Shown: in pieces, positions 2,217 through 63,868 of the stretch | Numbering within the stretch: position 1 is the stretch's first letter | How the letters are laid out: the number at the start of each line of letters is the position of its first letter | Assembly (NCBI GenBank): GCA_032358255.1 | Contig: JAULBX010031371.1 | Coordinates: 107,544 to 171,543 of the forward strand | DNA: 64,000 nucleotides | Origin: Heterotrichella gracilis | Lineage: Eukaryota > Sar > Xanthophyceae > Tribonematales > Xanthonemataceae | Reading direction: 5' to 3' | Notes under the pieces: generated by a model | Seen by the model: the letters and a program-made list of their open reading frames with translations, nothing else | Told to the model about the DNA's origin: nothing | Databases searched by the model: none | Translations under genes and position numbers: made by a program

Positions 2217-2760
2217 CGCCTGGCCTGGTGCACTGCCTGTTCCCTATGTATTCAAAATTCTGGCTTAGGATGGGCAGCCCGCCCAACCACTTTAGCCTGG
2301 CGCGCTGTCCGCTTCTCCGGTGCCCAATCAGTCCCACCCAATGTCCCACCAGTCCCATATGCTGCACAATGCTCAAAACCCTAGAGTAGGATGTGCAGCC
2401 TAACCCTGCCCCCTAGGCTCACGCGCTGCTCGTTCCCGCATCCGCCCCGCTGGCTCCAGCTTGGGCAGTGCTGAAAACCCTAGGCAAGGTCCGCAGCAAA
2501 ACCCTAACGCCTAGCCTACCGTATTGTCCGCTCCCTCCTCTGCCCCGCCAATCTTACACTGTGCAGTGCTCAAAATTGTGGCATTGAATACCCCATTGCC
2601 TAGCCCGGCGCGCTGCACCCTTCCTCCTCTGCCCCGCCAGCCATCTTGCGCGCAAGAGCTCAAAACCCTTGGGTAGCATTCATTGTAGAACATGGAATGT
2701 CCTATTGCCTAGCCTGGCGCGCTGCCCGCTCCCTCCTCTGCCCCGCCAGCCCCATCACCT
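2217..2760. repeat. Degenerate tandem array derived from the last DnaJ exon
   Basis: About six degenerate units share a core (tagcctggcgcgctg, then ccctcctctgccccgccag), with anchors near 2217, 2293, 2414, 2512, 2601 and 2710, giving spacings of about 76-121 bases. Read on the minus strand, the unit at 2702-2760 is the coding end of the DnaJ gene (residues [16 protein letters not shown] and the stop). The others are non-coding downstream copies with altered or lost frame. Several units contain AAACCCTA telomere-like motifs. Confidence 0.75.
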
Positions 2761-61349: not shown

Positions 61350-63868
61350 TCAGCTGAAATGGATGCCCTCCTTGTTGAAACACGACAGCAGCGCTAGGAA
61401 GTCGTCCTGCGTCATCTTTGACCCTCGCATCTCAATGTAGCCGCTGTCTGTCAGCACCTTGAGCACCTTCTCCTTGAATGCGGGGGAGAACTTGGCCTTC
61501 TTGCCGCTCACCACCTGCGCACCAGTGGATACATATAACATAAGGAAAACATGTCCAAATGATGCATACACCTGAAAAAATGTACTTTTACTGTAATCTG
61601 TTGCAATTATATTATACCTGACTAAATAACAATATATAAATATTTAACATGAAAATATTGCACGGAAAGCCCACCGCAGCCCGTAACGACGATAGGAATT
61701 TGCCATGCGGAGCAATTTCCAACTCCATTAGAGGCATGCAAGAGCAATAAGGGCCCTACATGCAAAGAAAATGAAAATCGTCTCCCACCTGCTCCCCATC
61801 CACCTCCATGCCCGCCTCCTCCCCTTGATCGTCATCTATGGGGGACACTGCATCCTCCATGGCCAGGTCAGCAACGCCGGCCGTGGAAGGTTCGGTGATG
61901 GTGGTGCCGTTGACTGCCGCCAGGGCCTGGTAGGTCTTGTAGTTGGTTTCCACCAGCTGCAGGGGGAGGGAAAGGAGAAAAGGTCAAACAAATAAATTGG
62001 AATCTAGCAGCGATGATGTTGACGGCAGTGATGGCGTGGATGTGGGGTTACTGGTAGCGAAAGTCGTGAGCCATGGGCCAGCCACATTGCACACACATCT
62101 CAACAGCTACGGGGCCCCCAAGTAGCCCCTCAACACCACCCCAGGTGCACCTACCCTTGTTGGCCCCACTCCCCTCCTCGACACCTTGGCACATGCACCC
62201 CAACCCCACCCACACCTCCCACCAACCGAGTGCTGGACCAAAGTATTGCCATAAGCACCTTACTATTTCTCCAAACACAGACGCTTCATCCCATCCACCA
62301 CCATCACCACCCCCACCCACCTGCAGCGTGCTGGACTGCCTGAAGATTGCCCCCAGCGTCTTGTTTTTCCGCCCAAAGCAGAGCCGCACCAGCCCATCCC
62401 ACTCCCTGAAATTGACAGCTGGCAGCGGGTTGCGCGGCTCGATGCGGACCACGCTGGAGTCCACCTTGGGTGGGGGCCGGAAGTTGTTCCTGCCAACCTG
62501 GCAAGGGGTGATAAGGGAAAGGGGTCAGGAAAAGGGTGTGGGACTGGAAAGGAGCAGGGCGGGTGGAATACGTGCGGTATTGCAACGGGCGTCGCATGCA
62601 ACGAATTGGAAAAGACTTGAAAACATCACTGAGGTTATTTGCCCCTATAGACTCTCCTCAGAAAACATACGCAGAAGGCATACACAGCACGCGGAGGGTG
62701 TCCCTGAGTCAAGACTGGGCGTGCGGCGCGTACAAGAACCAAACCCAGACAAAATAAGAAAAGGTGCTTGACATGTGGTCAGTCTCAGGAAGTACTCCCT
62801 TCAGCTTGTGTGGCTACCACGCCAGCAGCTTGGTCATGACAAACACACCAACACTACCCCAATAGCCAAACCCTAGCCTAGGGTTTCCTCACCTTGAGCA
62901 GGTGCAACACGCGCGCCAGCAGCTGCGTGCTGACATCACACAAACGCTACCCCAACACACCCAAACCCTACTCAAGGGTTAACCCACCTTGAGCAGGTGC
63001 GACACGCGTGCCAGCAGCTGCGTGTTGACCGCCAGCCGGCAGTTCATGGGGTCCCCGGGCTTGGCCACCAGGCGCATGGCAAACTCGTGCTGGAACATGA
63101 TGACGGCCGCCCTAAAGGAGGGTTTGTGCGCCAGCAGCTTGAAGGTGAGCGGGGAGGATATTTGGTAGGGGATGTTGGCCACGCAGATGTCAAAGTAGGG
63201 CAAGTCCACCTTCATGACGTCCCCGTGGATGACTTGGAGGTGCGTGGCCATGGGCGTGCCCTGCACGCGCCGCTGCAGCTCCAACACCTGCGGGGTGGTG
63301 GTGGTGGTGGTGAATGGGAGATTCTCAGCTGGGCGGGTGGAGGATGGAATGGAGGTGTATGTGCCTAGCCATGGAGTGGCCCTGCGCACGCCGCTGGAGC
63401 TCTCAACAGCTGCAGGATGGCGGTGGTAATGGAGGCGATGGTGTGCATGGCGTCTGCATTTGGGCACAGGACATGGGTGTTCATGGGGACTCTGTGCACC
63501 CGCCACTGGAGCTCAACATGTGCGGGGCATGATGCGTGGGGTATGAGGTATAGACCAGGGTTTTGCAAGCGTCCCCATCACCGCTGCGAGAGTCCACCTT
63601 CACCCTCACCACCCCTACACCCCTGATGCAACCTAGAGAACTGAACTCGAAGGGGTTTCCGCAGGTGTCCCTCTCACCATGCGCGGGTCAACCTCCACTG
63701 CCACCACCCTCTTTGCCTTCTCAAGCAGCTTCACCGTCAGGTTGCCTGTGCCGGGGCCTATCTCCAGCACCACGTCTGTGCTCTTGATGCCTGCCTTGTC
63801 CACGATGGACTGCACCACCAGGGGGTTTTTGAGGATATGCTGGCCTTTGGATTTGAGGAACTCGATAC
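61350..63868 (-). CDS. DIM1: 18S rRNA dimethyladenosine transferase (DIM1/KsgA family), 5' partial
   Basis: SAM-dependent enzyme that dimethylates the two adjacent adenosines near the 3' end of 18S rRNA during small-subunit assembly in the nucleolus. Exons (minus order): 63678-63868, 62988-63287, 62321-62497, 61789-61956, 61350-61514; 1001 bases in phase. The first listed exon begins at codon position two, so the start exon lies beyond the window. Motifs: [17 protein letters not shown] loop [19 protein letters not shown], acidic motif VEVDPRMV, catalytic [54 protein letters not shown] and the conserved eukaryotic C-terminus FNKEGIHFS. The presence of that C-terminus and the INF/EWDGL block point to the nucleolar rather than the organellar paralogue. 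An acidic insert ([16 protein letters not shown]) lies in the fourth exon. Introns carry copies of both edges of the 300-base exon. Confidence 0.92.
62888..62936 (-). repeat. Copy of the 3' end of the DIM1 300-base exon
   Basis: Repeats the exon end (encoding [12 protein letters not shown]) with an intact donor (ctcaag-gtgagg), 95 bases downstream of the real one in the gene. Confidence 0.88.
63358..63530 (-). repeat. Two copies of the 5' end of the DIM1 300-base exon
   Basis: Segments at about 63363-63420 and 63470-63525 resemble the exon start at 63240-63300 (ctgcacgcgccgctgcagct, then ccaacacctgcgg), at offsets of about 120 and 230 bases, upstream of the exon in the gene. The acceptor-like ctg(c/t)ag positions are partly kept. 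Confidence 0.7.

Follow-up and report, generated by a model that had tools for sequence, protein, structure and literature searches.

Genes and copied exon edges at the locus

The window, a 64-kb stretch of DNA analyzed at its full length, is the final part of contig C876 (171.5 kb) in an assembly of 68.5 Mb in 903 contigs. It carries genes for a MATE protein and for PGM, both identified by Pfam, a DnaJ gene, and two genes that we take to be DIM1 and DHH from their in-frame translations; a six-frame search of the assembly with PF01368 did not have the window's DHH gene among the matches listed. Identity between the window's PGM and the [Myrmecia] bisecta protein reached 77%, the highest value among 120 proteins listed, with other trebouxiophytes only slightly below, and the chlorophyll a/b-binding family had 43 exon-level matches in the assembly; from these matches, the source of the window is judged to be a green alga, specifically a trebouxiophyte. 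Gene models were drawn by a self-trained hidden-Markov gene finder and are mostly unverified. On the 270 kb of algal sequence described below it yielded 49 genes and 413 exons, with a donor profile (GTRRG) and an acceptor profile (GCAG then G) that are both sensible; the MATE, PGM, and DnaJ models agreed with Pfam, and the PGM exon models were borne out by a tblastn search with a homologous protein. At 40499-46288, genes of both strands form a cluster of three similar members that resembled F-box proteins with leucine-rich repeats by eye. Two tandem mTERF-like genes, lying in the stretch of C876 between a point 6.5 kb upstream of the window and window position 1669, were fused by the gene finder to an adenylate-kinase-like model (names likewise given by eye).

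Copies of exon edges in adjoining introns were evident in several of these genes. In MATE, the 3' end of exon 4 (8277-8567 in the gene-finder model), together with its donor and the start of the intron, was present in three copies (8473-8828, plus strand; unit of 127-129), the two further copies being intronic. Telomere-type tracts lay between copies 1 and 2 (8577-8617, plus, TTTAGGG strand) and between copies 2 and 3 (8708-8753, plus). Self-alignment also paired the 3' end and donor of exon 8 (10459-10548, plus) with an intronic copy at 10638-10727 (plus) that was 80% identical and kept the donor GT; the spacer between them, 10549-10637, had no match in the assembly besides itself.

In PGM, on the minus strand, self-alignment paired exon 3' ends with intronic copies as follows: 17605-17645, including the donor, with 17539-17578 (90%), a telomere-type tract lying between them at 17585-17612 with its G strand on plus; 17051-17116, including the donor, with 16948-17006 (76%, with a deletion); 15411-15521, including the donor and 28 nt of intron, with 15204-15314 (91% identical); and 13746-13817 with 13533-13605 (78%). 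The copied donor at 15204-15314 reads GC followed by AAG, a donor form used by some GC-AG introns, and the spacer next to it (15315-15410) again matched nothing in the assembly but itself. With the PGM of [Myrmecia] bisecta, the one of six homologues for which the alignment was inspected, tblastn gave a second, intronic match for three exon ends, at 17578-17552 (E 0.37), 15311-15231 (E 4.5e-7), and 13592-13536 (E 0.034). A copy earlier assigned to PGM exon 10 disappeared after simple-repeat masking.

In DIM1, also on the minus strand, an exon 3' end with its donor (62892-63029) recurred at 62798-62934 (78%), with a telomere-type tract between the copies at 62942-62970 (C strand on plus); a second exon 3' end (62292-62399) recurred at 62192-62296 (67%), and an exon 5' end with its acceptor (63236-63295) at 63469-63527 (72%). 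In DHH (minus), an exon 5' end at 48790-48831 recurred at 48887-48928 (95%), a copy that is partly exonic according to the gene finder. For this pair and the first DIM1 pair, the gene finder makes part of both copies exonic (62893-62922 in the DIM1 copy), and their intronic placement is our reading. The repeats at DnaJ proved to be of another kind: a degenerate array of ~95-nt units at its 3' end and 3' flank (2176-2754, minus), mostly past the predicted stop codon and not an intron. The original prediction of exon-edge copies in five genes therefore holds for MATE, PGM, DIM1, and DHH, and not for DnaJ; the lengths of 45-85 bases and distances of 65-215 bases that it gave were too narrow, as both actually range wider.

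Local direct repeats and their bias toward exon edges

The sample drew on seven contigs, that of the window among them, for a total of 270 kb of algal DNA (C876 in full, 20 kb of C564, 40 kb of C200, 10 kb each of C300, C400, and C500, and 8.4 kb of C600). The assembly contains more than algal DNA: contig C1 (sampled GC, 33-36%) bears bacterial genes, presumably for a PhoH-like protein, a TonB-receptor-like protein, and a long repeat protein (L015, L023-L027), and we take it to be a Bacteroidetes-like bacterium. C1 and C100 (GC 37%) were left out of the analysis; positions 1-10000 of C100 (L016) held 3 local repeats and 2 telomere-type tracts.

Local self-alignment at offsets of 25-600 bases, with a cutoff score of at least 22, found 138 direct-repeat pairs in the sample, most of them 65-95% identical. 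C876 contained 82 pairs, versus 0, 0, 1, and 2 in its four shuffles, and the window 28, versus 0 or 1 in each of 20 block-wise dinucleotide shuffles, which bears out the original prediction that the copies are too regular for chance. Outside the sample, C100 held 3 pairs in 10 kb and C700 1 pair in 1.3 kb. Three of the 138 pairs, with more than 400 aligned bases, were removed before pairs were classed. Among the remaining 135, both copies were called exonic in 24, some of these being copies that the gene finder mistook for exons, as in DIM1 and DHH. An exon edge was joined to intron in 60 of the 135, versus 24.4 ± 4.4 under random placement. When every pair was taken to be a tandem repeat with a unit equal to its offset (offset of at least 60; n = 106), 56 edge pairs were observed versus 25 expected, 17 intron-only pairs versus 37, and 3 intergenic pairs versus 19, so that exon-edge repeats had ~6 times the odds of random placement relative to intron-only and intergenic repeats together. 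One duplication of ~185 bases in the window (26974-27361, 82%) lies fully within a predicted intron and involves no exon edge.

An exon-anchored test (score of at least 16, with other introns of similar length as controls) gave the same picture from the side of the exons: upstream exon ends recurred in their own intron in 45 of 361 introns versus 0.6% against other introns, and downstream exon starts in 36 of 361 versus 0.1%, while exon interiors gave 0 matches in 129 over the same 270 kb. Roughly one exon end in ten is thus copied into the neighboring intron, and recurrent local duplication in direct orientation, as originally proposed, is upheld by both the self-alignment and these matches, which in this sample lie far above the background rate that would have refuted the original prediction. 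The copied boundaries comprised 35 donors and 26 acceptors, and 56 of the 61 had the copy on their intron side. The frequency of copied edges varied among the contigs (C300, 11/34; C500, 7/32; C564, 8/54; C876, 46/448; C400, 2/22; C200, 6/106; C600, 1/26). Introns with a copy were longer than those without (median, 412 versus 294 nt), as growth by duplication would produce and as the suggestion of intron growth had implied.

Telomere-type tracts beside copied edges

The five commonest 7-mers of introns were rotations of the telomere unit (TTTAGGG) or its complement, at a density of 9.7 telomere 7-mers per kb in introns, compared with 3.4 in intergenic sequence, 0.8 in exons, and 0.8 in shuffled introns. 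Because arrays of CCCTAAA start within the first 7 bases of C70, C140, C526, C609, C717, C770, and C824, this unit, the same as that of the intronic tracts, was taken to be the alga's own telomere. A telomere 15-mer occurred 5117 times in the assembly (overlaps presumably counted), versus once for its reversed control. Merged intronic tracts numbered 164 at a threshold of 20, versus 4.8 in shuffles, and clustered roughly 10-60 nt from splice sites.

These tracts were statistically linked to the copied edges, an association that is new and was missing from the original prediction. A tract lay within 100 nt of 22 of 44 copied donors versus 46 of 302 others (odds ratio 5.6, p ~1e-6), and of 17 of 33 copied acceptors versus 41 of 313 others (odds ratio 7.0, p ~1e-6). 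Copies of 26-135 bp abutted the tract on both sides in 25 of 193 intronic tract clusters, versus 12 of 1940 control intervals. Weighing against the repair process proposed below, a looser tract threshold placed a tract in 39 of 66 edge pairs but also in 49% of randomly chosen spans that covered an exon edge. An array of several exon-edge copies with telomere-type tracts between them, minisatellite-like in appearance, was seen in C564 (L013 1390-1892).

The sequence between and around the copies was examined for the form of the events. Spacers reached at least 25 bases in 43 edge pairs, 34 of which were testable; in 26 of these, similarity between the spacer and the flank past the second copy did not exceed that of 95% of controls, which suggests that the two copies enclose an unrelated insert. 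In the other 8 the spacer did resemble the outer flank (~2 expected). Among pairs of at least 86% identity, the spacer was unlike the outer flank in 7 of 9, and in most high-identity pairs the aligned length was well under the offset. In 20 of the 25 cases in which copies abut a tract, a further tract was present beyond the copies, at most 25 bases away (looser threshold; base rate, 12% per side). These outer tracts fit a joint tandem duplication of copy and tract better than plain insertion; some of the 20 are arrays of three or more copies.

A repair process that may lengthen introns, and its alternatives

We consider it probable that a recurrent local DNA-repair process lengthens introns in this genome, with telomere-type sequence involved. 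A break near an intron end would lead to repair that recopies ~30-130 bp of one side beside itself, in direct orientation and with or without filler between the copies. The copied stretch would usually span a donor or acceptor because breaks sit near splice sites, and it would be tolerated because the outer exon and its own splice site remain intact; the copy would then turn into intron and decay neutrally. The TTTAGGG/CCCTAAA sequence might either be inserted as filler or mark a fragile site of the break or template switch. The copies themselves, their exon-edge bias and neutral decay, their statistical link to telomere tracts, and the greater length of the introns that carry them are shown by the data; that break repair is the cause, in which order the events took place, and what part the tract plays are inferred. 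A growth process that is visible in this way, whose copies differ in age while their source is conserved, would make intron growth measurable event by event, and the telomere-repeat link would tie telomere maintenance or break repair to gene structure.

Another possible explanation is that the tracts are selected splicing signals at intron ends, G-rich after donors and C-rich with a branch-point-like CTAA before acceptors, and that the duplications are a by-product of tract fragility. In introns of the 270-kb sample, G-runs were enriched after donors and C-runs before acceptors in general, and CCCTAA peaked 20-40 nt upstream of acceptors, the usual branch-point zone. Tracts were also present without copies: in copy-free introns of at least 240 nt, they covered ~4-6% of the first and last 60 nt versus 0.4% of the mid-intron, and tracts may therefore have their own reason for being near splice sites. 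At acceptors without a copy the C-rich strand dominated (34 C : 8 G), but copy-free donors showed little bias (27 G : 20 C). The edge bias, moreover, persisted without tracts: the ratio of edge pairs to intron-only or intergenic pairs was 39:11 with a tract and 27:9 without, so tracts alone do not explain it. The tracts may have a function in splicing that is independent of the duplications.

Somewhat more tentatively, telomere-repeat addition at breaks, by telomerase or from captured telomere DNA, could be a main source of intron sequence: breaks at intron ends would be healed with TTTAGGG repeats as the exon edge is duplicated, introns would grow by repeated copy-telomere-copy steps, and the C-rich strand would also provide branch-point-like sequence through which the longer intron can still be spliced. 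Were telomerase primed on a broken 3' end, G-strand tracts should sit closer to the left copy and C-strand tracts closer to the right one; the counts (G tracts, 18 left versus 11 right; C tracts, 10 versus 12) showed no clear asymmetry.

Ordinary tandem duplication at random positions, which introns would tolerate and which would come to notice at exons since the copy there is conserved, is a rather unlikely source of the pattern. Its copies would decay neutrally, as those observed do, and the spacer was shorter than 25 bases in 23 of 66 edge pairs, as in plain tandem copies. In simulation under assumed rates, however, edge pairs remained detectable only 1.1-1.3-fold longer, against the roughly sixfold edge odds, and detection bias was rejected as the sole cause of the excess. 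The high-identity pairs, mostly aligned well below their offset and with spacers unlike the flank, also argue against it.

That the copies are kept by selection as functional decoy or alternative splice sites, one of the roles originally suggested, is highly improbable. Decay was followed in 81 copies (alignments scoring at least 18, 4 of which align no exon base), 54 of which cross a splice site well enough for GT or AG to be scored. GT was retained in 26 of 33 copied donors and AG in 18 of 21 copied acceptors, but retention was near the neutral expectation of 77% derived from codon positions 1 and 2 (binomial p 1.0 for donors, 0.44 for acceptors, and 0.52 pooled): copied GT and AG decay at the same rate as neighboring sites, and such a role was rejected. 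Mismatches between exon and copy amounted to 12.1, 12.2, and 21.1% at codon positions 1, 2, and 3, with positions 1 and 2 diverging equally, the pattern expected of a copy free of constraint together with silent change in the exon, and 27 of the 81 copies carried frameshifting gaps. Their decay is that of DNA under no constraint.

Mobile introner-like elements with long target-site duplications are very unlikely to be responsible. The copy-insert-copy layout resembles insertion with target duplication, but with telomere tracts masked only 11 intron pairs among 362 introns shared at least 40 bp, and the two spacers searched assembly-wide matched themselves alone; the 270-kb sample revealed neither an introner family nor many near-identical introns. 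Intron birth through tandem duplication of AGGT-containing exon segments, also part of the original prediction, fares worse still and is extremely unlikely here. The mechanism is a known one (PMC3443670), and direct duplications are plentiful in this genome, but its signature, in which the copy offset equals the intron length with the donor in one copy and the acceptor in the other, was absent from the 337 introns sampled: none reached 45% identity, and mean identity was.262 versus.260 in shuffled pairings, a test that old, decayed births could escape. An assembly artefact can be practically dismissed despite the mixed assembly of 903 contigs, given that the pairs are mostly not identical and that bacterial C1, from the same assembly, held 4 pairs scoring at least 22 in 60 kb.

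Relation to known systems

Each element of the proposed repair process is known apart; long exon-edge copies beside telomere tracts, at about one in ten edges, appear to be a new combination, with none among the matches listed in the literature search. Among the matches listed in a literature search that had most subscription papers outside its reach, there was nothing on telomere repeats at splice sites and nothing on exon-edge copies in algal introns; the search took in the Coccomyxa (PMC3446292) and Trebouxia (PMC12712428) genome papers, as far as their available text goes, and the portions available of PMC7789003 and PMC6410037 held nothing on either subject. Chlamydomonas and its relatives are described as having conspicuously long introns, with no usual short peak and a cause stated as unknown (PMC8226300, available text).

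Neointrons of Daphnia, attributed to staggered double-strand-break repair and marked by exon-shared repeats of 4-12 bp, offer a close parallel, in that direct repeats are footprints of break repair in introns and passive intron lengthening is proposed in the text available (PMC4202315). In the alga, by contrast, the copies at tracts measure 26-135 bp and extend across splice sites already in place, and telomere-type sequence takes part. Direct repeats of 4-30 bp at intron borders, likewise near splice sites and taken as insertion footprints, differ in being found by comparing an intron's two intron/exon borders with each other (PMC11782384, in part). Intron gain by tandem genomic duplication, as far as it is described in the available text of PMC3443670, shares the local direct duplication; the alga, however, lengthens existing introns, with no sign of new introns made so.

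Telomere repeats inside chromosomes have precedents of their own. In mammals, interstitial telomeric repeats are inserted at breaks, and some carry a duplicated flank (6 of 130 rodent and 4 of 25 primate loci in the part of PMC2246262 available); in the alga, the tracts concentrate at intron ends and the duplications can exceed 100 bp. Plant telo boxes, for which a telomerase-based origin is proposed, are also short telomere motifs within genes and are most frequent in 5' UTRs (PMC3022908, available text). Their density in introns was 72 per Mb in the larger genome tabulated there, inferred from its size to be rice, whereas the introns of the alga, under counting rules that may differ, contained 1458 per Mb with both strands counted, close to splice sites.
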